From Candidatus Falkowiibacteriota bacterium (GTDB lineage Bacteria > Patescibacteriota > Patescibacteriia > XYB2-FULL-38-15), in the NCBI GenBank assembly GCA_016214745.1, contig JACRNW010000013.1:1-33198 (forward strand): a DNA stretch of 33,198 nucleotides, read 5' to 3'. The notes beneath the pieces were generated by a model. That model saw nothing but the letters and a program-made list of their open reading frames with translations, did not search any database and was not told the DNA's origin. The position numbers and the translations under genes were made by a program. Position 1 is the first letter of the stretch. Each line of letters opens with the position of its first letter. Positions 3,299 through 18,279 of the stretch are shown piece after piece.

Positions 3299-3411
3299 TG
3301 AGGAAAGATAAATTAGTTTTTTTGTTTACGAAGCGAGAAAAATCAGTTGTTGCGAAATTTGCAACAAGTTGCCACCGGCAGGAAGATCGGAGGATAAATT
3401 TGTATATTTAA

Positions 3412-3465
3412 ACTTAGTTTATATGTTCCGACCGAATATAAACTAAGTATCAAGATAGTTTATAT
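3412..3465. promoter_or_regulatory. Triple AGTTTATAT repeat with 13-bp inverted arms upstream of lexA
   Basis: ACTTAGTTTATAT (3412-3424) and ATATAAACTAAGT (3436-3448) are perfect inverted repeats separated by 11 bases. A third half-site AGTTTATAT occurs at 3457-3465. The left arm also forms part of a smaller palindrome, TAAACTTAGTTTA. The arrangement suggests a multi-site operator for a dimeric regulator, plausibly LexA itself, or an RNA hairpin. It lies about 200 bases before the lexA start. The rest of 3299-3663 contains no ORF I can support. Confidence 0.5.
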
Positions 3466-3570
3466 TCAAATGTGCAAAAAATGTACGTTGCAAAGGTGAA
3501 TGTCGGGAAAATCCAACTATTCGGAAATTCCGGATAACCGCAACTGGCGGAGGGGCGAGCGCTTCAGTTA

Positions 3571-3607: not shown

Positions 3608-3655
3608 TTATCCACAGATAAACTCTTGTGTCCAGAATAAATAGTCGGGTATAAT
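3608..3655 (+). promoter_or_regulatory. lexA promoter with consensus DnaA box
   Basis: A perfect DnaA box TTATCCACA (3608-3616) is followed by TTGTGT (3626-3631), an 18-base spacer and a perfect TATAAT (3650-3655). Transcription would start about 3661-3663, at or just before the ATG at 3664, so the mRNA is probably leaderless or nearly so. Confidence 0.65.
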
Positions 3656-3663
3656 ATAGATGT

Positions 3664-4311
3664 ATGGAAAACACAATAACCAAAAGACAAAGAGAACTTC
3701 TAGAAATTATTTATCAGTATATTAAAGATACCGGTTACCCGCCGACATTTGAAGAAATGAGAGAAAGACTGAACGTTTCCTCCAATCAATCAGTAGTTGA
3801 TCTGTTGGAGAAATTAAATTCCGGTTGTTTTATCCAAAAAAAAGAAGCTGGCGCCAGGAATATTGCGATCCTTCCATTGGGATATTCAGCACTCGGTCAG
3901 CCAGTGCTCGTCGCTTTCCGCGGCGTCACAAGTGCTGGCGCACCAATCGAAGCGATAGAAATCGCCGGCAATTGGCAAGCAATGCCCTCGCTTGTAGATA
4001 AAATTGAAAAACTTCAAGATGAAGTTTTTTTGTTAAAAATTTCTGGCGATTCAATGATTAACGCCGGCATTGACGACGGCGACGTAGTACTCGTAAAAAG
4101 CCAAAAAGAATTTGTTTCAGGTGAGGTTGTCTTAGCCCAGATAGGAAGCGATTCGACCGTGAAACGTTTTATGTCTGAAGACAAGCCGCCGTACGTTTAT
4201 TTAAAACCGGAAAATCCAAAATATAAAAACATTTTATTTTCAGACGATGCAGAATTAAAAGGCAAGGTTATTTCCGTTTTAAAAAATGGATATTGGAAAT
4301 CAATCAAATAA
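3664..4311 (+). CDS. lexA: LexA-family SOS repressor, self-cleaving (215 aa)
   Basis: The N-terminal winged-helix DNA-binding domain (residues 1-65) has the LexA signature TKRQRELLEIIYQYI and GYPPTFEEMRERL. The C-terminal S24 peptidase domain has the cleavage site Ala91-Gly92 (VTSAGAPIEA), nucleophile Ser130 in GDSM and general base Lys167 (STVKRF). All the residues needed for RecA-stimulated self-cleavage are present and the length is typical. It has its own promoter and lies only 6 bases upstream of a restriction-modification gene, so it probably regulates that gene as well as itself. Whether it is the cell's general SOS regulator or a local controller of the island cannot be decided here. 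Confidence 0.93.
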   Translation: MENTITKRQRELLEIIYQYIKDTGYPPTFEEMRERLNVSSNQSVVDLLEKLNSGCFIQKKEAGARNIAILPLGYSALGQPVLVAFRGVTSAGAPIEAIEIAGNWQAMPSLVDKIEKLQDEVFLLKISGDSMINAGIDDGDVVLVKSQKEFVSGEVVLAQIGSDSTVKRFMSEDKPPYVYLKPENPKYKNILFSDDAELKGKVISVLKNGYWKSIK

Positions 4312-4317
4312 AAATTT

Positions 4318-6273
4318 ATGCCAACAAAAAAAGTTAACAAAGTTAAAGAAGTATTAGACAAAATTTTTCGCGATACTGATGCAGCCTACGGTCTGAAAGA
4401 GTTTGAAAATATAAATTTTGATGACGCCCTGGATATCACCGAGGAGGAGAAAGGAAAATTTTATATTAAGGATATAAAGTCCGGCAATTTAAGAGTTGTT
4501 TTTGACGAAGAAAAACAAAAGGGCAGACCCGAGGAAATTATCCGCCAGCTTTGGGTTTATAAACTTAATAAACAATATCAGTATCCACTTGATCGGTTGG
4601 ATATTGAAAAGAGCATCCATTTCGGCCGCGAGATTCATGCCAAGGCCGCGGATATTATTATTTATAAAAAAGACAAAATCACGCCGTACATAATTGTTGA
4701 GGTAAAAAGTCCGACCGAGAAAAAAGGCATTGATCAATTAAAAAGCTATCTCTCGGCCGAGGGTGCGGAAATCGGATTTTGGTCTAATGGGAAAAATCAT
4801 ATTATTCTTTATCGTCCTTATCCAAAGGAATTTGATGACACGCTGCCGGATTTGCCTATGGCGAGCCAAACAATTGATGATCTGCTGGAAGCAAAAAAGA
4901 CACTGCTTGATTACACAACCACCAAAGCCGATTTAAAACAAATCGTTGAATCAATGGAAGAGTTAGTTTTGGCGAACGCGGGCATCGATGTCTTCGTGGA
5001 AGTTTTTAAATTGATTTATGCCAAACTCTACGACGAAAACGAAGCTCGGATCAACCGATCTGACCAAGAAATTTACTTTAGAAAATATAAAGATCCAGCC
5101 AAAACTTACGCAGTTATCAACGATCTTTTTAAAAACGCCATGAAAAAATGGCCGGGTACTTTTTACGAACAAGAAAATATCAATCTTTCGCCAGAGCACC
5201 TTTCAATTGTTGTTGGCGAACTGGAAAAGGCGCGGCTCTTCGGTTCTGATTTATCAATTATTGATGAAGCGTTTGAACATTTGATTCCGGAAGTCGCCAA
5301 AGGAAAGAAAGGGCAATATTTTACGCCGCGGCATGTTATTGCCATGGCTGTAAAAATGTTAAATCCTCAAAAAAATGAAAATGTTATTGATCCGGCCGCC
5401 GGTTCCGGAGGATTTTTAATCAGTGCGATGTATTGGATAAGAGATAAATATTTGAACGGTAAAAATGAGGCAATGCAGGAATACGCGAAAGAGCATGTTT
5501 GGGGTTTGGATTTTGCCGAGGAAATTTCAAAAGTTTCTCGCGCCTTGATGCTCATCGCCGGAGATGGGCGGTCGCATATGTTTAAACTTAATACTCTTGA
5601 TCCGCGCGAATGGCAAGGTGAAGATTCCTTGCTTTTGGACGCGAGGGCAAAATTAAAAACCAAACTTTTAGATCTTGGCAATTCGGCCGACAACGCGGAC
5701 AATCAAAAAACTTTTCATTATTTTAATTTTGATGTGCTTCTCACCAATCCGCCTTTTGCCGGGGAAATAAAAGATTCGGGAATTTTGCGGCAATATTTTT
5801 TTGGAAAAAAGAAAGGAAAGTTGGTAAATAATATTGAGCGGCACATTTTGTTTATTGAGCGAACGCTGGACATGTTGCGACCCGGCGGCCGTATGGCGAT
5901 TGTTTTGCCGCAAGGAGTTTTGAATAATACAAATATGGAATACGTGCGCCAATATCTTTTTGATAAGGCGCGGATTTTGGCGGTCGTCGGTTTGCACGGC
6001 AACACTTTCAAGCCGCACACCGGAACGAAAACGAGCGTCTTATTTTTGCAAAAGTTTGACAAAGATGAAAAGTCGCCGAAAGATTACCCAATCTTTATGG
6101 CGGTTTCCAAAAAAGCGGGCAAAGATAATTCCGGAGATTATATTTATAAAAAAGACGCCGCGGGCGGTTTTGTCCACGACGCCAAGGGGCGAAAAGTTTT
6201 AGATCACGATCTCGACGAAATTGCCGAGGCGTTTATAAAATTTGCGAAAGAACAGAAGTTTAAGTTTACGTAA
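4318..6273 (+). CDS. Nuclease-methyltransferase fusion of a BcgI-like/type I-like R-M system (651 aa)
   Basis: Residues about 60-170 match the HsdR N-terminal nuclease fold: Asp112 in AKAADIII and Glu128-Val-Lys130 in YIIVEVKSPT give a D-x15-ExK PD-(D/E)XK site. Residues about 215-330 are helical, like the N-terminus of HsdM. Residues 330-620 form an N6-adenine methyltransferase with AdoMet motif DPAAGSGG (358-365) and catalytic NPPF (477-480). A nuclease and a methylase in one chain with a separate specificity subunit (9015-10367) resembles BcgI, a type IIB enzyme whose A subunit is of similar size. No helicase-type HsdR is present in the window. The gene follows lexA by 6 bases and precedes the NYN gene by 4, so all three are probably co-transcribed. 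Confidence 0.87.
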   Translation: MPTKKVNKVKEVLDKIFRDTDAAYGLKEFENINFDDALDITEEEKGKFYIKDIKSGNLRVVFDEEKQKGRPEEIIRQLWVYKLNKQYQYPLDRLDIEKSIHFGREIHAKAADIIIYKKDKITPYIIVEVKSPTEKKGIDQLKSYLSAEGAEIGFWSNGKNHIILYRPYPKEFDDTLPDLPMASQTIDDLLEAKKTLLDYTTTKADLKQIVESMEELVLANAGIDVFVEVFKLIYAKLYDENEARINRSDQEIYFRKYKDPAKTYAVINDLFKNAMKKWPGTFYEQENINLSPEHLSIVVGELEKARLFGSDLSIIDEAFEHLIPEVAKGKKGQYFTPRHVIAMAVKMLNPQKNENVIDPAAGSGGFLISAMYWIRDKYLNGKNEAMQEYAKEHVWGLDFAEEISKVSRALMLIAGDGRSHMFKLNTLDPREWQGEDSLLLDARAKLKTKLLDLGNSADNADNQKTFHYFNFDVLLTNPPFAGEIKDSGILRQYFFGKKKGKLVNNIERHILFIERTLDMLRPGGRMAIVLPQGVLNNTNMEYVRQYLFDKARILAVVGLHGNTFKPHTGTKTSVLFLQKFDKDEKSPKDYPIFMAVSKKAGKDNSGDYIYKKDAAGGFVHDAKGRKVLDHDLDEIAEAFIKFAKEQKFKFT

Positions 6274-6277
6274 AAAT

Positions 6278-6856
6278 ATGTTTGGCCAAACAGTAAAAGA
6301 AATCAGAAACACTATTTACGTTTTTATTGATGCCTCAAATCTTTGGGAAGCACAGAAGTCAAAAGGCAGATTTTTTGACTACGCAAAATTAAGAGCATTT
6401 ATTAAAGAAAAATTTGGAGGGTCGTTAATAGAGGTTTTTTACTACACCGCTTATCCGGCTGACGGAACGCGAGATTATAGTATAGATGGTAAACATAAAT
6501 TTTTTACTTTTCTAAAAAAGGGGTTGGGTTTTATTGTAAGGAAAAAGGAATTGAAACGGATTCCCGTAATTACTGAGGCCGGACAGTCCATAGAAGAAAA
6601 AGGAAATATGGATGTAGAGATGACAATTGACGCAATGTACCATTTTAAAAAATACGACACGGCAGTTTTCTTTACTGGTGACTCTGATTTTTTGGCGTTG
6701 GTCACCCACTTAAGAAACGGTGGTAAAAAGGTATATATTTTTTCCTCAAAAAATAATATATCTGAAGAATTACGGACCGGGGGAGATGGTTACTTTGATG
6801 TGCTTCTTTTGAGGGAAGATGTATGGGGGAGAGAATTAAAACATAGACCAAAATAA
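6278..6856 (+). CDS. NYN/LabA-like PIN-fold RNase (192 aa)
   Basis: The protein matches the NYN (DUF88/LabA) family of metal-dependent RNases. Acidic residues of the active site are visible in VFIDASNLW near the N-terminus, in GNMDVEMTIDAM in the middle and in FFTGDSDFLALV later, followed by the strand KKVYIFSS. The start at 6278 was chosen because it follows the upstream stop by 4 bases and the NYN fold begins directly after it; an earlier in-frame start would sit inside the methylase gene. Its place between the methylase and specificity genes suggests an accessory anti-phage RNase. A hairpin follows the stop. Confidence 0.85.
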   Translation: MFGQTVKEIRNTIYVFIDASNLWEAQKSKGRFFDYAKLRAFIKEKFGGSLIEVFYYTAYPADGTRDYSIDGKHKFFTFLKKGLGFIVRKKELKRIPVITEAGQSIEEKGNMDVEMTIDAMYHFKKYDTAVFFTGDSDFLALVTHLRNGGKKVYIFSSKNNISEELRTGGDGYFDVLLLREDVWGRELKHRPK

Positions 6857-6858
6857 AA

Positions 6859-6882
6859 GCAACCCTCCGCGAGGAGGGTTGC
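6859..6882. terminator. Perfect 10-bp hairpin after the NYN gene
   Basis: GCAACCCTCC and GGAGGGTTGC pair around a GCGA tetraloop. The + strand continues with CCCTTGG rather than a T run, so it may be a weak terminator or an mRNA-stabilising hairpin. AAAATAAAA before the stem would give a partial T tract on the minus strand. Confidence 0.6.
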
Positions 6883-6898
6883 CCTTGGATGTAATACC

Positions 6899-6993
6899 CT
6901 TTCAGTCTATGGTAAACTGAAAGACATTATCAGTATATGGTCGCTTGTATAAAAAGTCAAGGGCGGGTTATCCACACAAAAGATCAGGTAAAA
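6899..6993 (+). promoter_or_regulatory. Regulatory region: inverted repeat, DnaA box and -10-like sequence
   Basis: CTTTCAGT (6899-6906) and ACTGAAAG (6916-6923) form a perfect 8-bp inverted repeat. A second perfect DnaA box TTATCCACA is at 6968-6976. TAAAAT at 6988-6993 may be the -10 box, giving a transcript that starts just before the ATG at 7014. Confidence 0.45.
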
Positions 6994-7013
6994 TTTATTT
7001 TAGTAAGTCATTT

Positions 7014-7817
7014 ATGGAAAAAAAGAAAACCGTCAATGAGTTGATTAAAGAGAGCGGTATAATAACTCATTATAAAACTGTAAATAAACTAAAAACTCTG
7101 GGGTGGGAAGTGTTTGTTAGCCCATATTATTTTGATGTCATTTCCGACACAGTAAAAGAGATAGATATAATTGCAGAGAAACCTTTTTACTCAGTCTCCG
7201 ATGCGGCTTATAGTTCTAAAGTACAAATTAACGTGCAGCTTTTTTTAGAGTGTAAATATATAAAAAATGAGATAGGCCTTTGGTTTGATAATATAAATAG
7301 AGATAATGTTGTTTCTAAATTAGAGAAAATAACAAATTTACCCCTTGTATATGGATCGAGAAGTCAGGGTTTTTCGCCTGACAAATTCCATTATTTCAGA
7401 TATAACAAAACTGTTAAACTTTTTACTCCCGATACTAATAAAGAAGACATAATTTATAAAGCAATAACCCAATGCCTCAATGCTCAAACATATCATCAAG
7501 ACAAGGGTCGAACTTTACATTTTCATTTTAGCGGGCGTGACGGAACAATTAATAACATTATTAGGTATCCGATGATTGTTTGCGATAAATTTGATAAATT
7601 GCAAGAGATAGAGTTGTCTAACGGCGGTGATATTTATAAAACGAAGCCGATCGAAAATATCTTTGCGCTAGAAACTAATTATTCGGCCGAGAATACGGGT
7701 TTTGAATATTCTTTGATTGATGTAGTCGATTTTAACTATCTTGAAAAATTTTTAGATGAGTTAGGGCAAGAGGCGAAAGATCTGGTTGGCGCATACGTGT
7801 TTAAAGGGCGCAGATGA
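7014..7817 (+). CDS. Putative PD-(D/E)XK nuclease (267 aa)
   Basis: I do not recognise a named family. The N-terminal third has a restriction-endonuclease-like pattern: helical start (VNELIKESG), TLGWEVFVSPYYF, then Asp51 in KEIDIIAEK and Glu79-Cys-Lys81 in LFLECKYIK, which fits a D-xn-ExK site. The rest contains many aromatic residues and no motif I can name. The ATG at 7014 is preferred because the promoter-like region and DnaA box lie just upstream; the frame is open to 6945 but would include them. The stop overlaps the next start as ATGA, so it is coupled to the PIN gene. Its position inside an R-M operon supports a DNA-cleaving role. Confidence 0.6.
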   Translation: MEKKKTVNELIKESGIITHYKTVNKLKTLGWEVFVSPYYFDVISDTVKEIDIIAEKPFYSVSDAAYSSKVQINVQLFLECKYIKNEIGLWFDNINRDNVVSKLEKITNLPLVYGSRSQGFSPDKFHYFRYNKTVKLFTPDTNKEDIIYKAITQCLNAQTYHQDKGRTLHFHFSGRDGTINNIIRYPMIVCDKFDKLQEIELSNGGDIYKTKPIENIFALETNYSAENTGFEYSLIDVVDFNYLEKFLDELGQEAKDLVGAYVFKGRR

Positions 7818-8377
7818 TTTGTTTTATGTATAAAATTACTCTCGATACTAATTGTTTAATTGATATTGAAGAAAGACGTACTGGTTACGAGAATATTTTA
7901 GAAATTTATAATCTTCATAGAAACAAAAAAATACAAATTGCCGTGGTTGCATCGTCGGCAGTTGATAAAAAAATTAGTAAGCGGCCGATTACTAATTTCA
8001 TGGAGTTCCGCGTTTGGTTAAAAAATATAGGGTTTGAGGACATCGAGTTCTTGTGTCCTATTTGTTACACAAATATTAGTTTTATGGATTATTCTGTACT
8101 TTCTGGGCCAGAATTGGAAAAACTAGATCATGAAATTCATGCCGTACTTTTTCCAAAATTGCCCTTCGAGGGCCCAAGCCCTGAAATACGTGCCAAATGG
8201 GTAAATGCAAAAAATGATGTACTTATAATGTGGGCGCACATTTGGAATAAAAGAGATTTTTTTATCACAAGGGATGGGAATTTTTTAAAAAATAGCAAAA
8301 GGGAACCATTGGAGGAGTTGGGCGCAAAATGTATTTTAACGCCAGAGCAGTTTTTAGAAAGAATAGGAAATTTATGA
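7814..8377 (+). CDS. PIN-domain nuclease (187 aa)
   Basis: A PIN-like fold is indicated by the N-terminal strand and first acidic residue in KITLDTNCLIDIEE, and by the later motif KNDVLIMWAHIWNKRDFFITRDGNFL, which carries the other conserved acids. The PIN fold starts at once if the internal ATG at 7826 is used; the ATG at 7814 overlaps the upstream stop as ATGA and is equally plausible. There is no antitoxin-like partner directly upstream, so this is not an obvious VapBC module. The stop in turn overlaps, again as ATGA, the start of a vestigial hsdS reading frame. That shows the gene was once coupled directly to hsdS. Confidence 0.72.
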   Translation: MICFMYKITLDTNCLIDIEERRTGYENILEIYNLHRNKKIQIAVVASSAVDKKISKRPITNFMEFRVWLKNIGFEDIEFLCPICYTNISFMDYSVLSGPELEKLDHEIHAVLFPKLPFEGPSPEIRAKWVNAKNDVLIMWAHIWNKRDFFITRDGNFLKNSKREPLEELGAKCILTPEQFLERIGNL

Positions 8378-8442
8378 TTACTTATTCAATAATCAAAAAA
8401 TCACAACTCGAAGGTGCGCGGCGGCGAGGCATCCGTAATTAG
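8374..8442 (+). pseudogene. Remnant of an hsdS 5' end (22 codons)
   Basis: The ATG at 8374 opens a short frame reading MITYSIIKKSQLEGARR before diverging and stopping at 8440-8442. The intact hsdS at 9015 begins MVHLIIQKSQLEGARRLDAE. The two share a 19-base identical stretch ending in GAAGGTGCGCGGCGG. The remnant keeps the ATGA overlap with the PIN gene, so it marks where hsdS originally began before the HEPN-like gene was inserted or hsdS was rearranged. Confidence 0.8.
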
Positions 8443-8459
8443 TGTCGTCTAAATTTTAT

Positions 8460-9011
8460 ATGGAAGATAAACAAAAAATAAAAACTTGCGTAATGGGCGA
8501 CTTAGAATTGTGGAATTTCTTGTATAAAAAATTATTGAAAATTAAAAAATTTGTCTTTGCTTATGATAAGGTGATAACCAACATTGAGCTTAATAAGTAT
8601 CGTTACGACGAGGCTTTTCAATTAATTTTGGACAGTTTTTCTAGAACTATGGCTGTTGAGTTAGCATTGTTTTTTGATAGGAGAAAGGACGTCTGCTCGT
8701 TATACACTTTTGAAAAATTAGATAGGAAAGAAATTACTAAAATTTGTAATGAGGCTGAATCATTTATTTTGATGAGACATACCGAAGTTGGTCATTTATC
8801 TAAATATATAAACCACGGAAATGATTTTGTTTTTTATACAAAAACGGGTATTTTAAAAATAAAAGAAATACTTGATAGTTTAGATGTTCTCTTACAAAAC
8901 GTAAACAAAATTTATAATTTTAATAAATATTATAATGGTGAAACGTTTGAGGAAATAGAAAAATCGTTTGAATATTTGTTCAATGATCTACTGGGTATGA
9001 AGGTTAAATAA
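8460..9011 (+). CDS. HEPN/AbiU2-like protein inserted at the hsdS start (183 aa)
   Basis: The protein is almost entirely helical and lysine rich. It contains RHTEVGH (Arg106 to His112), which fits the R-x4-6-H active site of HEPN ribonucleases, and its overall pattern resembles AbiU2-type abortive-infection proteins. The family call is an inference from these features. The ATG at 8460 is preferred; a GTG at 8442 would add six residues and overlaps the stop of the hsdS remnant. It lies 3 bases before the intact hsdS. Placement between a truncated and a complete hsdS start suggests it arrived as a cassette. It is AT-rich compared with the fusion gene upstream. Confidence 0.55.
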   Translation: MEDKQKIKTCVMGDLELWNFLYKKLLKIKKFVFAYDKVITNIELNKYRYDEAFQLILDSFSRTMAVELALFFDRRKDVCSLYTFEKLDRKEITKICNEAESFILMRHTEVGHLSKYINHGNDFVFYTKTGILKIKEILDSLDVLLQNVNKIYNFNKYYNGETFEEIEKSFEYLFNDLLGMKVK

Positions 9012-9014
9012 AGT

Positions 9015-10367
9015 ATGGTCCACTTAATTATCCAAAAATCTCAACTCGAAGGTGCGCGGCGGCTGGATGCGGAATATTATCAGCCGGAGTATTTGGATTG
9101 GTTGGGGCATTTAGAAAAATTTGAGCCGAAAGAATTAAAATTGCTTACTGAAAAAATTGACGTTGGTTTTGTGTCCTCCATGAAAAATGAATTTAGAGAC
9201 GAGGGTGTTCCCTTATTGAGAACTCAAAACGTTAAAGAATTTTATATAGACCTCGATGCCGATATAGTTTATATTGATGAGGAATTTCATAAAAAATTAA
9301 AGAAGTCTCAAATTTTTCCAGGGCTTGTTTTGCTTGCAAGAAGTGGCACTATTGGTGATGCGTGCATGGTGCCAGAAGACTTCCCCACAGCTAATTCCGC
9401 CGACATTATTTTAATAAAAACAAAAAAGGAGTTAATTCCAGAATATCTAACTGCATTTCTAAATTCTAGGTATGGGAGATTTCAGATTGATCGCGCTTCA
9501 AGTGGCGGTCTACAGGGGCACATGAATTTATTTAGTTTAGAGAAACTTTTAGTGCCACTCGTAAAATATAATCTTCAGGAAGAAATAAAAAAAATAGTAC
9601 AAAATGGTTTGGCAGGATTTAATGATTCTAAATCCTTCTACTCCCAAGCCGAGAATTTGCTTTTGGAAGAGTTGGGGTTGAAAAATTTTGAGCAAGACGG
9701 CGGCGGATTATTTAATGTGGTAAATTTATCCGACGTGAAAACCGCCAAACGTTGCGATGCGGAATATTTTCAGCCGAAATGTGGTAGGTTAATTTCAAAA
9801 ATTAGAAAACAAAATACAAAATTATTAAGTGATGTTATAGAAAATGTGCCAGCGAAATTTAATGCGGCCGCACAACCGGATAAAAATTTTAAATACGTAG
9901 AGCTCGCCGATATTAACGCGTCGGTCGGCACAATCGACGGATTTTCCGAGATAGCGGGTAAAGAAGCTCCGAGCCGCGCAAAAAGAGTTTTAAAACCTGG
10001 CGATGTTATTGTTTCAAGCGTTGAGGGTTCTCTGGGAAAAGTAGCGCTCGTTGATAAAGAACAAGAAGGATATTTGGCGTCAACGGGTTTTTTCCAATTT
10101 AGAAGTAAGGAAATTTTGCCGGAGGTTTTACTGGTTTTAGCAAGAAGTTTAATTTTCCAAATGCAGTTAGAAAAAATGTGTGCAGGGACAATTTTGACCG
10201 CCGTGCCAAAAGAAGCAGTGAATAATGTCGTCGTGCCAATTCTGCCCAAACCCACCCAACAAAAAATCGCCGATCTCGTCCGTGCTTCGCATTCGGCGCG
10301 CAAAAAGGCAAAAGGATTGTTGGAAGAAGCAAAGAAAAAAGTTGAGGAGATGATTGATAAAAAATAA
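9015..10367 (+). CDS. hsdS: DNA specificity subunit HsdS (450 aa)
   Basis: This is a type I-style specificity subunit that recognises a bipartite DNA target through two target-recognition domains. The first half (about 1-215) begins with the conserved RLDAEYYQPEYL and contains VGFVSSMKNEFRDEGVPLLRTQNV. The second half (about 235-450) begins with the matching KRCDAEYFQPKCG and contains the TGFFQFRS stretch. Each half ends in a helical conserved region, the last being QQKIADLVRASHSARKKAKGLLEEAKKKVEEM. The size is normal. It would partner the nuclease-methylase at 4318-6273 although five short genes lie between them. Confidence 0.92.
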   Translation: MVHLIIQKSQLEGARRLDAEYYQPEYLDWLGHLEKFEPKELKLLTEKIDVGFVSSMKNEFRDEGVPLLRTQNVKEFYIDLDADIVYIDEEFHKKLKKSQIFPGLVLLARSGTIGDACMVPEDFPTANSADIILIKTKKELIPEYLTAFLNSRYGRFQIDRASSGGLQGHMNLFSLEKLLVPLVKYNLQEEIKKIVQNGLAGFNDSKSFYSQAENLLLEELGLKNFEQDGGGLFNVVNLSDVKTAKRCDAEYFQPKCGRLISKIRKQNTKLLSDVIENVPAKFNAAAQPDKNFKYVELADINASVGTIDGFSEIAGKEAPSRAKRVLKPGDVIVSSVEGSLGKVALVDKEQEGYLASTGFFQFRSKEILPEVLLVLARSLIFQMQLEKMCAGTILTAVPKEAVNNVVVPILPKPTQQKIADLVRASHSARKKAKGLLEEAKKKVEEMIDKK

Positions 10368-10382
10368 ATAATTTTTTATATT

Positions 10383-11315
10383 ATGATTGGAAAACTTAAA
10401 AAAGTTCCCCTAAGAGAAATTTGGCGCGATGAAGCTAGGGATTTTACCGCTTGGCTTTCTGAAAATATTGATACTCTTAATGAAGCTTTAGAAATAAATT
10501 TTTCTATAATTGAAAAAGAAAAAGCTGTCGGTGATTTTTCCCTTGATTTAATCGCCGAAGATGCAGATGGACAGATTACTATCATTGAAAACCAGCTTGA
10601 AAAAACAGACCATGACCATTTGGGTAAGGTTATCACATATTTATCTAATTTAGATGCTAAAACCGCTATTTGGATAACAAGTAAACCGCGAGATGAGCAT
10701 ATTAAGGCGATAAACTGGTTAAATGAATATACTCCGGATGATATTTCATTTTTTTTAATTAAAGTTGAGGCCGTTCGCATTGGGGATTCGGCGCCCGCGC
10801 CGTTATTTTCAATTGTTGCCGAGCCGACTGAAATATCAAAAGAAGTCGGTAAGGAAAAGAAAGAATATGCGGAGAGACATCATCTACGAAAAGAGTTTTG
10901 GACTAGTTTATTAGAAAAAGCAAAATTAAAAACTAAACTGCATTCAAATGTTTCACCATGCATTTATCATTGGATAGGCGCGGGTGCAGGTAAAAGTGGC
11001 GTTAGTTATAATTATGTTGTGACTAACGACTATGTTTCGAGCGAAGTATATTTAGATCGAGGCAAGGATCACCCGACATTAAATAAAGAAAGATTTGATG
11101 AGCTATATAAACATAGAGCAGAAATTGAAAAAATATTTGGCGGCCAGTTATCCTGGGAACGCTTAGATAAAAAAAGAGCTTCGCGTGTCGTCCTTAGGTA
11201 TAAGGGGTTTGGTTTAAAAAATAAAGAGACATGGAACGAAGCACAGGAAAAAATGATTGATTCAATGGTTAGAATAGAAAAGGCGTTTAAACCATATATT
11301 GAAAAATTAAAATAA
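10383..11315 (+). CDS. DUF4268-domain protein with nuclease-like N-terminus (310 aa)
   Basis: The N-terminal 150 residues resemble the PD-(D/E)XK-like region found in DUF4268 proteins, with VGDFSLDLIAEDADGQITIIENQ followed by TDHDHLGKVITYL. The C-terminal 150 residues match DUF4268: HHLRKEFWTSLL, then SGVSYNYVVTNDYVSSEVYLDRG, then IEKIFGGQLSWERLDKKRASRV. Such proteins often sit beside R-M genes and are thought to act on DNA; no reaction is established for this one. The site has ENQ rather than ExK, so catalytic activity is uncertain. It follows hsdS by 15 bases and probably ends the R-M operon. Confidence 0.78.
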   Translation: MIGKLKKVPLREIWRDEARDFTAWLSENIDTLNEALEINFSIIEKEKAVGDFSLDLIAEDADGQITIIENQLEKTDHDHLGKVITYLSNLDAKTAIWITSKPRDEHIKAINWLNEYTPDDISFFLIKVEAVRIGDSAPAPLFSIVAEPTEISKEVGKEKKEYAERHHLRKEFWTSLLEKAKLKTKLHSNVSPCIYHWIGAGAGKSGVSYNYVVTNDYVSSEVYLDRGKDHPTLNKERFDELYKHRAEIEKIFGGQLSWERLDKKRASRVVLRYKGFGLKNKETWNEAQEKMIDSMVRIEKAFKPYIEKLK

Positions 11316-11336: not shown

Positions 11337-12203
11337 ATGAAAAAAATATTTTATTCCACAATTTTTTCCGCTGCGGTTTTGGGTTTGGCCGGTTGCGCGA
11401 GCCGGGATATTAATATTATTCCTCCGCCGGTAAATGTGGCGGCGGAAAATGAGGCGGTAAATGAACCGGCAAAATCCCCCTCGAATCCCCCCTTGGAAAG
11501 TGGGGAGAGCGCGAATACAAACACAAATACAAAAACAGAAACAGAAACAGAACCGAGCGCGGATCTGTTTTTGGTTTCAAGCGTGGTGGACGGCGACACG
11601 GTGAAAGTGAATATTGATGGAACAGTGGAAACTTTGCGCTTGATTGGCATTGATACGCCGGAAACTGTTGACCCGAGAAAACCGGTGCAATGTTTTGGAG
11701 TGGAGGCCTCAAATAAAGCCAAGGAGTTATTAACCGGCGCGAAAGTTCGTTTGGAAGCGGACCCGACTCAGGGAGAAAGTGATGTTTATGGCCGACTTTT
11801 GCGATATGTTTTTCTGGATGACGGCACGAATTTTAATAAATTAATGATTGAACAAGGTTACGCCTTTGAGTATACTTATAATACGCCTTACAAATATCAA
11901 ACGGAATTCAAGCAGGCGGAAACTTACGCCAGAGAAAATAAACTCGGTCTTTGGGCCGACGACACTTGCGCCGGAGTGGCTGATCCAGTTTCCGCGGACA
12001 CAAACACAAATACCAACACGAGTATCGGCGCGCCGGAAGGTTGCGTGATAAAAGGAAATATCAGCACGGAAAAAATTTATCATCTGCCGGGTTGCGGCAG
12101 TTATGATAAGACAGTTATTGATGAATCGGCTGGCGAGCGGTGGTTTTGCACTGAAGAGGAAGCCGTGGCCGCCGGTTGGCGAAAAGCATTAAATTGTCCA
12201 TAA
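11337..12203 (+). CDS. Thermonuclease-family lipoprotein (288 aa)
   Basis: A lipoprotein signal peptide ends at Cys20 (LGLAGC). A Thr/Asn/Glu-rich linker (45-75) leads to a staphylococcal-nuclease domain at 77-210 with VVDGDTVKV, RLIGIDTPE and YGRLLRYVF. The expected catalytic trio Arg101, Glu109 and Arg153 is present. After a second Asn/Thr linker, residues 236-288 form a small Cys-containing module (YHLPGCGSYDKT, then GERWFCTEEEAVAAGWRKA), often found at the end of secreted nucleases. The enzyme probably degrades DNA or RNA outside the cell, which fits nucleotide scavenging by an organism with reduced biosynthesis. It has no obvious functional link to the R-M genes upstream. Confidence 0.9.
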   Translation: MKKIFYSTIFSAAVLGLAGCASRDINIIPPPVNVAAENEAVNEPAKSPSNPPLESGESANTNTNTKTETETEPSADLFLVSSVVDGDTVKVNIDGTVETLRLIGIDTPETVDPRKPVQCFGVEASNKAKELLTGAKVRLEADPTQGESDVYGRLLRYVFLDDGTNFNKLMIEQGYAFEYTYNTPYKYQTEFKQAETYARENKLGLWADDTCAGVADPVSADTNTNTNTSIGAPEGCVIKGNISTEKIYHLPGCGSYDKTVIDESAGERWFCTEEEAVAAGWRKALNCP

Positions 12204-12221: not shown

Positions 12222-12266
12222 TTATCCACAGTTATAATTTGACAGCCCCTTTTAGTGTGGTATAAT
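12222..12266 (+). promoter_or_regulatory. Near-consensus promoter with DnaA box for the XRE/ImmA pair
   Basis: TTGACA (12239-12244), a 16-base spacer and TATAAT (12261-12266) form an almost perfect sigma70 promoter. A third consensus DnaA box TTATCCACA lies at 12222-12230, just upstream of the -35. Confidence 0.85.
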
Positions 12267-12277
12267 AATACCACACT
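12254..12277. promoter_or_regulatory. 24-bp palindromic operator over the -10 box
   Basis: AGTGTGGTAT (12254-12263) and ATACCACACT (12268-12277) are perfect 10-bp arms around a 4-base centre. The palindrome covers the whole -10 hexamer, so a bound dimer would block RNA polymerase. The natural candidate is the XRE protein encoded 23 bases downstream, giving negative autoregulation. Confidence 0.85.
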
Positions 12278-12299
12278 TTAAATATCTAACATCAATTTT

Positions 12300-12680
12300 A
12301 TGAAAAATGAAAATTTAAAAAAATTCGGCGAACTTTTGAAATATTTAAGAATGAAAAAAAATTTTAGTCTGCGGGACATTTGCAAAAAAATTAATTATGA
12401 TCCCAGCAATTGGAGTAAAATTGAGCGGGGCCTGATTTCGCCGCCAAGCGATAAAGAGACCCTGTCGCAATGGGCCAAAGTTCTCTTAATTAAAAACGGC
12501 AGCGCAGAATATTATAATTTTATTGATCTCGCCAACATCGCCCAAGGTATTATTCCGGATTATATTATGCAGGAAGCGGATTTGGTAAAAGCTCTGCCGG
12601 CTTTTTTCCGAACGGTCAGAAATGAAAAGCCGACTAAAAAAGAAATTGATGATTTGATTAGTTTAATTAAAAATAATTGA
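12300..12680 (+). CDS. XRE-family HTH repressor (126 aa)
   Basis: Residues 7-70 form a Cro/C1-type helix-turn-helix (FGELLKYLRMKKNFSLRDICKK, with recognition helix around DPSNWSKIERGLISPP). The C-terminal 50 residues are helical and probably mediate dimerisation or contact with the protease encoded next. The gene follows a strong promoter whose -10 box lies within a 24-bp palindrome. It is followed after 6 bases by an ImmA/IrrE-type peptidase, the arrangement known from ICEBs1-like ImmR/ImmA switches and some HigBA/Xre modules. It most likely represses its own operon until cleaved. Confidence 0.88.
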   Translation: MKNENLKKFGELLKYLRMKKNFSLRDICKKINYDPSNWSKIERGLISPPSDKETLSQWAKVLLIKNGSAEYYNFIDLANIAQGIIPDYIMQEADLVKALPAFFRTVRNEKPTKKEIDDLISLIKNN

Positions 12681-12686
12681 GGGGGG

Positions 12687-13271
12687 ATGCAAATACCATT
12701 TTTTAATAATGATGAGTTAAAACGGAAAGCTCAAGAATTCAGGAATAAATATTGGGGTGATGCCGTGCCCGTTGATATTGAGCAAATTATTGAGTTTAAA
12801 TTACGCATTGGCATAATCCCCGTGCCGAATTTATATAAACAATGCAACGCCGACGCGCTCATCTCTTCGGATTGGCAGACAATTTACGTGGACAACGACA
12901 ATTATTTGGATGACAAATGCTACAATCGGCTGCGCTTTTCTTTGGCCCACGAAATTGGTCATTTTGTTTTGCATCAAGAGCTTTATACTTCTTTTGATAT
13001 TAAAAGTATTGAGGATTTTTACGAGGTTATAGAGCAGATCGGTAGGGAGTATGGCATTATTGAGGGCCATGCGAACCGTTTTGCCAATTTTCTTTTAGTA
13101 CCAAGAGATCGATTGGCGGCTGAAAAAGAAAAGATAGAGCGAGAGTATTTGGCAAAATACCCGGAGGTAAGTAAGATTGACAGTGCGACCCTTAATTCCT
13201 ATGTCGCGATACCTTTGGCAAAAATTTTTAACGTGTCAGAGGAGGCGATGGAGTTAAGTTTGAAGGATTAA
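12687..13271 (+). CDS. ImmA/IrrE-family metallopeptidase (194 aa)
   Basis: The zinc site HEIGH (His88, Glu89, His92) occurs in LAHEIGHFVLHQE, and a later acidic ligand lies in IIEGHANRFANFLLVPR (Glu126 region), both typical of the ImmA/IrrE (DUF955) family. Such enzymes cleave a partner XRE repressor in response to stress. The start codon directly follows a purine run, GAGGGGGG, a rare Shine-Dalgarno-like signal in this part of the window, and lies 6 bases after the XRE stop. The pair would act as a regulatory switch or as an antitoxin-protease module. No toxin or phage gene adjoins it. Confidence 0.88.
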   Translation: MQIPFFNNDELKRKAQEFRNKYWGDAVPVDIEQIIEFKLRIGIIPVPNLYKQCNADALISSDWQTIYVDNDNYLDDKCYNRLRFSLAHEIGHFVLHQELYTSFDIKSIEDFYEVIEQIGREYGIIEGHANRFANFLLVPRDRLAAEKEKIEREYLAKYPEVSKIDSATLNSYVAIPLAKIFNVSEEAMELSLKD

Positions 13272-15789: not shown

Positions 15790-15819
15790 GCACAATGACT
15801 TTTGAAAGGTAGTGATGAA

Positions 15820-18279
15820 ATGAAAAGAGGACAATTGGGGGTTCTAGTTCTGTGTCTTTGTTTGCCAGAGTGGGTTTTGGCGGACGACCCCTGCGCGCCC
15901 TGTAGCGGAAACTGCGGGGAGTCCATCGGTTCTTTGCTTGGTATCGACGCCTTCTCAAATGGCGCACGAGGCAATTGCACTGGTACGGGACGAGGGTTTT
16001 ACCAGTGTGTGGAGTATGCGAAGAGATTCAACGGAAGAAGCGGCGAACGGTGGGGGAATGCTAATCAGATTTTTAGTCGGGCCGAAAGACTTGACTTGAG
16101 ATCTTTTCAAAATGGCGAAGCGGAAGCGCCACGACGAGGGGATGCCATTACTTTCCAGGGCGGCCGTTATGGTCACATCGCAATCATTTATGAAGTGGGG
16201 AGTAACTTCGTTACGCTCATTGAGCAGAACTGGCACAACATCTCTGGTCGTTTTCGCCGTCTGGACATGACCGTTGAGGGTGGGAGGTACACTGTTGTAA
16301 GCGACAGTAGAAATTACACCGTTGAAGGTTGGTTACGTCCGGCTGCTGACCCCACACTCACCGACGACGATGGCGACGGATTTTCTGAATCTGAAGGCGA
16401 CTGCGACGATGCGAACGCGGATGTTTACCCCGGCGCAGCGGAACTTTGCGATGGTGCTGATGAAGATTGCGATGGCGAAACAGACGAAACTTGGCCAGAA
16501 CTTGATTCAGTATGCACGGTTCGGCTGACACCGTACTGTGATCGTATTGGTACTTGGATTTGTGAGCCGTTCCATCGTGGAACGGTTTGCGGCGCCGACT
16601 ACACAATCTATCCCGAAGCCTGCAACAGCATTGATGACGATTGCGACGGCGAAACAGACGAAGACTGGCGAACGGGGTCATTGGCAGATCTTGGCGAACC
16701 GTGCGAAATGGGTTTTGGCGAATGCCGCGCGAGTGGCATTTGGGAGTGCGAACCCCTGGAACGCGGCACCACTGTCTGCAACGCCGTGCCTGCTTCTGGT
16801 ACGCCCGAGACTTGCGACAACCTGGATAACGACTGCGACACAGAAACCGACGAAGACTGGCCAGAACTTGGCTCGGCCTGCGGGATTTTTCCTTGTGATG
16901 GAACATATGTCTGCTCCCTGGGTGGTTCTGGCTCATACTGCAACAGCAGTCCGGGTATGCCGGAAGTCTGTGACGGCCTGGACAACGACTGCGATGGTGA
17001 AACTGACGAAACCCCGGCGGAACTCGCCTGTGCTGACACGAACGACTGCACAGAAGATGTCTGTCTTTTCGGTCTTTGCCAAAACGTAGCGCGCGACCGC
17101 GACGGCGACACCTACGCGGACGATCTTTGCGGCGGCAGTGACTGCAACGACTTGAACCCCGCGGTTTGGGAGTACGCTTTCGTTGATTCGCGGCTGACAA
17201 ATTCGGTTGGCGATTCCAATATCCCGGCCGTGGCGTGGGCAGGAACCGAGCTTGGCGTTGCTTGGGAAGATTGGCGAGCGGGCATTCCCAACGCGGAGAT
17301 CTACTTTGCCCGGGCAAACACTTCGCTTGTGAGAATTGGCGATGAAGTCAGAGTGACGAATGCCTCATGGGGATCGCGCGAGCCGTCTTTGGTCTGGACA
17401 TCTTTGGAATACGGCGTGGCCTGGTACGACAGCCGACGCGACATGAGCCGTCCCGAAATCTATTTTACTCGTCTTGACGCTGCGGGTTTGGAAATCGGCG
17501 ACGATGTTCAGTTGACAGACCACTTTGCTCTTTCCGGCGCGAGCTACGCTCTGTCGTTTGTCTGGATGGGAAGTGAGTACGGCATCGCCTTTTTGGACAG
17601 TCGAGTCAGTCCCATGGATATCTATTTCATTCGACTCAATTCGAGTGGAACAGCAATTGCTCCCGAAGCGCCGATTATCAGTGATGGCGGAACGGAGAAT
17701 GTTCCAACTCTTGTTTGGACAGGAACCCAATACGGTTTGGCATACACCGTTTCATTCGACGGCTTTCAGCAAATCCTCTTCGCGCGGGCTGATTCCTTTG
17801 GTGCAAGAATTGGCGGCGTCACAACAGTTGCCGCGTTTGATTCGCTGGGGAGATTGTATGCCGAGACAGTTGACCTTGTCTGGCGAGGTTCGGAATTCGC
17901 TTTGCTTTGGACCAAGAACATGGCCAGCGGAGCGAGAGAAGTCTACTTCCGGAGGATAGACGCGGCTGGCGTGCCACTTGCTCCCGAAGTTCTGATTGCG
18001 AGTAGTCCGGACATCATCTACCGTGTCGCCCTCACTTGGAACGGGAGTGAATACGGGGCCACTTGGGAGGAAAGTTCGAGTTTGTTGGCGAACGCCTACT
18101 TTGTTCGTCTGGACGAAGATGGTGCAATACTTGGAACGGAAATTCAAATCGCAAACGCTGCAAGAGTCTGGGAAAAAGTGGTAGTGATCTGGACGAGGCA
18201 TGAATACATCTTTGCCTGGTCCGACAACCGTGACGGCGACTGGGAAATCTATCTTGGCCGCATAGGTTGCGGCTGGTAG
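15820..18279 (+). CDS. Secreted CHAP amidase with MopE metal-binding repeats and beta-propeller (819 aa)
   Basis: A signal peptide (1-21, ending VLADD) is followed by a CHAP domain (about 25-165) with Cys63 in FYQCVEYAKRF, His119 in YGHIAIIYEV and Glu136/Asn138 in EQNWH, the expected peptidoglycan-amidase site. Residues 185-430 carry repeats of the MopE copper-binding type (DGDGFSESEGDCDDANADVY, CDGADEDCDGETDE, CNSIDDDCDGETDE, CDNLDNDCDTETDE, CDGLDNDCDGETDE). Residues 440-819 contain about seven blades like LGVAWEDWR...EIYFAR, a beta-propeller. MopE-repeat/propeller proteins are known to me mainly from Deltaproteobacteria/Myxococcota. Higher GC and a plausible Shine-Dalgarno (AAAGGTAG) suggest transfer. 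The ATG at 15820 is used because it begins the signal peptide. Confidence 0.88.
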   Translation: MKRGQLGVLVLCLCLPEWVLADDPCAPCSGNCGESIGSLLGIDAFSNGARGNCTGTGRGFYQCVEYAKRFNGRSGERWGNANQIFSRAERLDLRSFQNGEAEAPRRGDAITFQGGRYGHIAIIYEVGSNFVTLIEQNWHNISGRFRRLDMTVEGGRYTVVSDSRNYTVEGWLRPAADPTLTDDDGDGFSESEGDCDDANADVYPGAAELCDGADEDCDGETDETWPELDSVCTVRLTPYCDRIGTWICEPFHRGTVCGADYTIYPEACNSIDDDCDGETDEDWRTGSLADLGEPCEMGFGECRASGIWECEPLERGTTVCNAVPASGTPETCDNLDNDCDTETDEDWPELGSACGIFPCDGTYVCSLGGSGSYCNSSPGMPEVCDGLDNDCDGETDETPAELACADTNDCTEDVCLFGLCQNVARDRDGDTYADDLCGGSDCNDLNPAVWEYAFVDSRLTNSVGDSNIPAVAWAGTELGVAWEDWRAGIPNAEIYFARANTSLVRIGDEVRVTNASWGSREPSLVWTSLEYGVAWYDSRRDMSRPEIYFTRLDAAGLEIGDDVQLTDHFALSGASYALSFVWMGSEYGIAFLDSRVSPMDIYFIRLNSSGTAIAPEAPIISDGGTENVPTLVWTGTQYGLAYTVSFDGFQQILFARADSFGARIGGVTTVAAFDSLGRLYAETVDLVWRGSEFALLWTKNMASGAREVYFRRIDAAGVPLAPEVLIASSPDIIYRVALTWNGSEYGATWEESSSLLANAYFVRLDEDGAILGTEIQIANAARVWEKVVVIWTRHEYIFAWSDNRDGDWEIYLGRIGCGW

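Follow-up and report, generated by a model that had tools for sequence, protein, structure and literature searches.

We analysed a 33,198-nt window of a Candidatus Falkowiibacteriota genome (contig JACRNW010000013.1, positions 1 to 33,198), which is contig C11 of the 923-kb, 95% complete assembly GCA_016214745.1. It holds a plus-strand run of genes, co-directional from lexA at position 3664, that comprises lexA, a restriction-modification (RM) fusion gene, four intervening open reading frames (ORFs) that we call cargo, hsdS for the specificity subunit, and a DUF4268 gene. The features of this run are as follows.

3626..3655, plus strand: predicted operon promoter, with -35 TTGTGT (3626-3631), palindrome (3632-3649) and -10 TATAAT (3650-3655)
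3632-3649, plus strand: candidate operator CCAGAATAAATAGTCGGG, the palindrome in the spacer between -35 and -10, putatively bound by LexA
3664..4311, plus strand: lexA, LexA-type repressor (LexA_DNA_bind 49 bits and Peptidase_S24 83 bits, both over their cut-offs)
4318..6273, plus strand: RM fusion of 651 amino acids (aa), with an HsdR-type PD-(D/E)XK domain (aa 71-180) and an N6-adenine methylase (aa 314-644)
6278..6856, plus strand: cargo 1, NYN-domain protein, a likely RNase
6945..7817, plus strand: cargo 2, 290-aa PD-(D/E)XK-like protein, assigned by motif; ATG 7014 may be the true start
7814..8377, plus strand: cargo 3, 187-aa PIN-like protein, assigned by acidic motifs and a weak match to PADLOC PDC-M11A
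8374-8442, plus strand: HsdS-start scar, a 22-codon ORF that opens with 17 codons (8374-8424) of a truncated HsdS start
8388..8425, plus strand: left copy of a 38-nt direct repeat, inside the scar
8442..9011, plus strand: cargo 4, 189-aa HEPN-like protein (weak), with AbiU2 below cut-off and an R-x5-H motif
9015..10367, plus strand: hsdS, specificity subunit with two target-recognition domains and two Methylase_S matches
9026..9063, plus strand: right copy of the 38-nt direct repeat, located at the start of hsdS; the two copies are 92% identical
10383..11315, plus strand: DUF4268 protein (110 bits), PADLOC defence candidate PDC-S11 (425 bits), 15 bp 3' of hsdS

An initial annotation had listed the fusion, the NYN, PD-(D/E)XK, PIN and HEPN-like genes and hsdS in this order and at these coordinates, which our analysis reproduces. 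It recognized the nuclease genes of the operon while overlooking lexA, its operator and the HsdS scar. For the NYN ORF, ATG 6278 is a more probable start than TTG 6242.

The fusion protein carries HSDR_N_2 (76 bits, cut-off 25) and N6_Mtase (125 bits, cut-off 20.4) domains, and Asp112, Glu128 and Lys130 stand at the positions given when it was first described as an HsdR-type nuclease joined to an N6-adenine methylase. This D..E-x-K nuclease motif is intact in all 20 close relatives, the window protein included. The closest match in the PDB, spanning residues 224-585, is RM.BsaXI, an enzyme of type IIB. The operon has the parts of a type IIB system, namely a nuclease-methylase RM subunit, a separate two-domain specificity (S) subunit and no HsdR translocase of its own; the HsdR subunit required of type I RM systems is not encoded in it. 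A genome-wide search confined to SWI2/SNF2-type HsdR found one such protein in the assembly, on contig C19 (L045, 11471-15906), where an 838-aa HsdR with a SWI2/SNF2 helicase is directly followed by a 638-aa methylase-specificity (M-S) fusion. Because this HsdR adjoins its own M-S fusion, it is part of a second RM system. The RM.BsaXI match and the location of the sole SWI2/SNF2 HsdR on C19 both support the BcgI-like arrangement proposed earlier, and on domain content the fusion and two-domain HsdS look like a helicase-free type IIB (BcgI/BsaXI-like) enzyme.

Relatives of the RM fusion were collected by protein searches. Among 379 genomes of the phylum, 14 encode one, counting the window's own genome (E at most 1e-40). 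A class-level search gave 15 among 373 genomes (E at most 1e-80), two of them already known, and two smaller classes gave 1 of 49 and 1 of 16 genomes, both already known. We defined a close set of 20 loci with RM proteins at least 57% identical, which includes the window and its nearest named relative, a Candidatus Nealsonbacteria genome (L015, RM 80% identical). Two fused forms from the 373-genome search (L076 and L077) and six distant loci from the 379-genome search (L039-L044) were left outside the count; among the latter, cargo is absent from L039 and L040 and present in L041 and L042, and no score could be given for L043 and L044. Outside the phylum, we inspected 12 plasmid neighborhoods, none of which has an annotated lexA just upstream of RM. 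RM and S lie side by side in all eight that have separate genes, a number that includes two near-identical Trichormus plasmids and two cases in which a gene with a hypothetical annotation was taken as S from its position. In the other four, a single long RM gene stands without a separately annotated S gene alongside; the gene in L048 also matches HsdS by blastp, and in the remaining three the length of the gene suggests an RM-S fusion.

Of the 19 close loci that could be assessed (L066 begins inside RM), 18 have a LexA homolog immediately upstream of RM and in the same orientation, with spacings of -23 to +18 bp. The window protein combines a LexA helix-turn-helix with an S24 domain, and the Ala-Gly cleavage site and Ser-Lys dyad are kept in 18/18. 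Upstream of every lexA, a palindrome related to CCCGACTAAATAGTCGGG sits between a -35 of the TTGAC type (in the window, TTGTG) and a -10 of the TATAAT type. In 17 of the 18 loci, 12-23 bases separate the end of the palindrome from lexA; in L033 the palindrome was identified by eye, because the predicted lexA start is too early. Depending on the locus, 10 to 18 of the 18 positions are symmetrical, and the variant ACTGAC..GTCAGT is found in L035 and L036. The window operator occurs once in the 923-kb assembly, even allowing up to 3 mismatches, and the LexA next to it is the only S24 match there; in this genome, the operon LexA is the only one found. LexA-type domains are near-universal in the 373-genome class (351/373), and two or more matches occur in 12 of 13 genomes with a close RM versus about 106 of 358 others (hand count). 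At other lexA genes of the class (30 upstream stretches, about half in readable orientation) the boxes differ by eye, and the operator score never rises above 11 of 18. The surplus of LexA matches and the different boxes thus make the operon LexA most likely a private copy within this class. Upstream of the lexA promoter in the window, overlapping inverted repeats surround AGTTTATAT (3403-3467).

The gap between RM and hsdS contains one to four same-strand ORFs in 18 of the 20 close loci. The 24 cargo ORFs are mostly unrelated between loci, and many belong to nuclease, toxin or Abi-like families: NYN (window and L037), PemK (L032), an AAA_15 and OLD-TOPRIM-like protein (L033), Schlafen AlbA_2 (L034), DUF3800 (L035, L038 and L069), DUF6119 (L036) and AAA_21 (L067). 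Clear homology links three pairs (L065-L073, L035-L038 and the two NYN proteins). Two further matches fall below E 0.01, one of them 14 residues long and the other involving an uncounted locus. The initial annotation had expected NYN, PIN and HEPN partners to recur beside the fusion and had named their non-recurrence as a reason to abandon the idea. By blastp across the fetched loci, NYN recurs in one other gap, whereas the 290-aa, PIN-like and HEPN-like proteins recur in none, so this part of the annotation fails and the window cargo is not a conserved set. What recurs is the slot itself, mostly with different genes. A Shine-Dalgarno-like motif at the end of RM was considered as a universal feature and rejected (7/20 loci).

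RM and LexA identities co-vary over the 18 loci (Spearman 0.78; none of 1000 permutations as high), whereas RM and HsdS identities hardly do (Spearman 0.24; 26/1000 permutations). In the pairs L067/L068 (RM 92% identical), L071/L072 (92%) and L036/L074 (87%), the cargo is different or missing and the HsdS proteins share 35-40% identity. Together, the identity correlations and these pairs identify LexA and RM as the stable core and cargo and HsdS as the variable part; HsdS and cargo are replaced far more rapidly than the two core genes. Cargo does not seem tied to a particular HsdS, since HsdS identity within the three homologous-cargo pairs is 25-39%, compared with an all-pairs mean of 38%.

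A trace of how cargo may come and go is preserved in the window, where the scar and the start of hsdS form the direct repeat that flanks the HEPN-like gene. In L069, a truncated HsdS start likewise produces a 69-nt repeat (86% identical) around a DUF3800 gene. The scores of these two scars were reached by 0 of 200 shuffles each. With a truncated HsdS start kept among the cargo genes, the cargo adjoining HsdS lies between direct repeats, and the prediction is that recombination between them would delete this cargo and leave a whole hsdS. Such scars are not a general feature of the family, as they were found in 2 of 18 testable gaps; L065 gave a borderline score (4/200 shuffles) and was not counted, and the 15 other gaps gave nothing.

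Among the four cargo proteins of the window, NYN is solidly assigned (89 bits, cut-off 24.2). The 290-aa protein matches no family above cut-off in Pfam, PADLOC or NCBIfam; two distant homologs retain its motif ExDIIA...LECK with slight variation. Homologs occur in 4 of the 379 genomes (the window's included), and no RM homolog was found near them in the three other loci fetched. In L115 (4731-7145), a homolog adjoins ORFs that look HEPN-like by eye. The 187-aa protein has no Pfam match at E 0.1, and its relatives, 24-29% identical, are encoded by 11 plasmid records. The AbiU2 match of the 189-aa protein has an E-value of 0.058. No relatives of the 189-aa and 290-aa proteins were found in viral contigs or in plasmids. 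Single-sequence fold models were too poor for use (predicted local distance difference test, pLDDT, of 31 for the 290-aa and 46 for the 189-aa protein).

The nuclease and methylase domains, the RM.BsaXI match, the two-domain HsdS, the LexA-RM layout, the position of the operator and its single occurrence in the assembly, the conserved cleavage residues, the cargo in 18/20 gaps, the turnover pattern and the scars, along with the precedents of prrC in EcoprrI and DarTG2 in a type I locus, lead us to favor, with a probability of roughly 0.5, a LexA-controlled, autoregulated and probably DNA-damage-inducible type IIB-like RM operon with an exchangeable effector slot. The layout suggests that LexA, bound to the palindrome between -35 and -10, would repress its own operon. 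By analogy with BcgI and BsaXI, the enzyme would be an (RM)2S assembly of two RM subunits with a single HsdS; it would methylate sites in the host and cleave DNA that lacks this modification, on each side of a bipartite site. DNA damage, caused by phage or by restriction itself, would activate RecA and, given the cleavage residues, trigger self-cleavage of LexA, the loss of which would raise the expression of enzyme and cargo jointly. The cargo, here up to four likely nucleases, could then serve as back-up effectors acting on RNA or DNA when restriction is insufficient. New cargo, as the comparison of loci shows, settles beside the conserved HsdS start. The layered defense with suicide effectors suggested by the initial annotation is plausible in these terms, although we infer both the SOS induction and the suicide activity. 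More tentatively, and at somewhat less than even odds, the operon may be an SOS-gated platform for swapping effectors, in which a private LexA couples a helicase-free enzyme to the effector in the slot, and duplicated HsdS starts recombine to bring about gain or precise loss of effectors, often along with a new specificity.

Several observations weigh against the favored reading. One close locus, L034, lacks LexA (at 7208-7769, where LexA would be, there are an XRE-like ORF, recognized by eye, and an N-terminal fragment of UPF0758). For L035 and L036, shuffled sequences reach comparable operator scores, and these operators are called on position and symmetry. Two gaps, in L068 and L072, are without cargo (3 and 78 bp). 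The RM protein has 651 aa versus 916 aa in BsaXI, the cleavage activity of which requires residues of a C-terminal paddle (PMC11997821). The NYN and 290-aa genes are separated by a strong hairpin (6855-6886) with a T-run on the minus strand, which could limit read-through and makes co-transcription of all cargo uncertain. The HEPN-like and PD-(D/E)XK-like labels, drawn from motifs, are the weakest assignments. Finally, transmembrane-like proteins are no commoner in cargo than among neighbors in the same loci (9/24 versus 70/204 other ORFs), and we dropped the idea of membrane-protein enrichment.

Some of these points also bear on other explanations. The cargo could consist of independent defense or toxin genes that have settled in a permissive, well-expressed gap and do not act jointly with the restriction enzyme. 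The mostly unrelated cargo, with three clearly homologous pairs, the two empty gaps and the 290-aa homologs found away from RM would all fit; however, cargo occupies the same gap on the same strand in 18/20 loci, under one regulator, and we regard independence as doubtful. LexA, for its part, might be a controller that delays or damps the enzyme during establishment, in the manner of the C proteins known from other RM systems, without responding to DNA damage. Such a role accords with an operator that sits in lexA's own promoter and is the only one in the assembly, but a plain repressor would have no need of the cleavage site and catalytic dyad that all 18 homologs keep, which leaves a simple controller rather unlikely.

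Alternatively, the fusion could be a type I-like methylase or a relative of MADS (MAD2/MAD5), dependent for restriction on other partners that include an HsdR from elsewhere. PADLOC labels it MTase_I (586 bits), MAD2 (316 bits) and MAD5 (159 bits) are the best NCBIfam models of the two core proteins, and an HsdR is present on contig C19. Yet the MAD2 and MAD5 scores are far under their cut-offs of 720 and 400, the C19 HsdR is already paired with its own M-S fusion, and the nuclease motif is whole in every close relative. We therefore consider this explanation improbable. The MADS resemblance ends with these two models, as both window proteins fall well short of the curated cut-offs and no full MADS gene set was recognized at the locus.

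The proposed LexA-controlled operon can be compared with systems described in three articles. BcgI and BsaXI share with it the fusion of an N-terminal PD-(D/E)XK nuclease with a gamma-type N6-adenine methylase, a separate S subunit and the lack of a helicase subunit, and D90-E105-K107 of BsaXI resembles D112-E128-K130 of the window RM; an upstream LexA and cargo between RM and S are present here and are not described for them in the part of that article available (PMC11997821). EcoprrI likewise has the gene of an RNA-cutting suicide effector, prrC, embedded in an RM operon, but its host system is of type IC with HsdR and without LexA, and the cargo of our loci does not include PrrC (PMC3874165). 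The type I locus of enteropathogenic Escherichia coli (EPEC) begins with a repressor gene, rptR, and carries a DarTG2 toxin module within its RM genes, in a slot proposed as a recombination hotspot; it differs in that RptR is a 79-aa repressor rather than LexA, and the slot lies between hsdS and hsdR (PMC12255303). Toxins embedded in RM operons (PrrC, DarTG2) and repressors before RM islands (RptR) are thus already known in these accounts. We found no account of a type IIB-like operon under LexA control and with a slot between RM and HsdS in the literature, as judged by titles and the beginnings of abstracts in a set that covered few subscription papers or preprints.

The DUF4268 gene downstream of hsdS may belong to the operon; it is absent from the corresponding position in L015, where a short nuclease-like ORF, recognized by eye, comes right after hsdS. 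Further downstream, the window encodes a secreted-looking staphylococcal-nuclease-like protein (11337-12203; PADLOC SNc+LTD). A perfect TTGACA-16-TATAAT promoter match precedes an XRE regulator and an ImmA/IrrE-type protease (12239-13271), a pair that PADLOC likens to capH and capP. At 15802-18279, an 825-aa protein combines a CHAP domain with repeated MopE-type metal-binding motifs.

If the favored reading holds, restriction in these bacteria would be tied to the DNA-damage response via a dedicated repressor. The operon would also offer a natural catalog of effectors in one defined slot, spread over many lineages within a single phylum of tiny bacteria. The repeats at the HsdS start give a clear prediction on how cargo is gained and lost, and the slot would be a place to seek new toxins and defense genes, including proteins of no known family.

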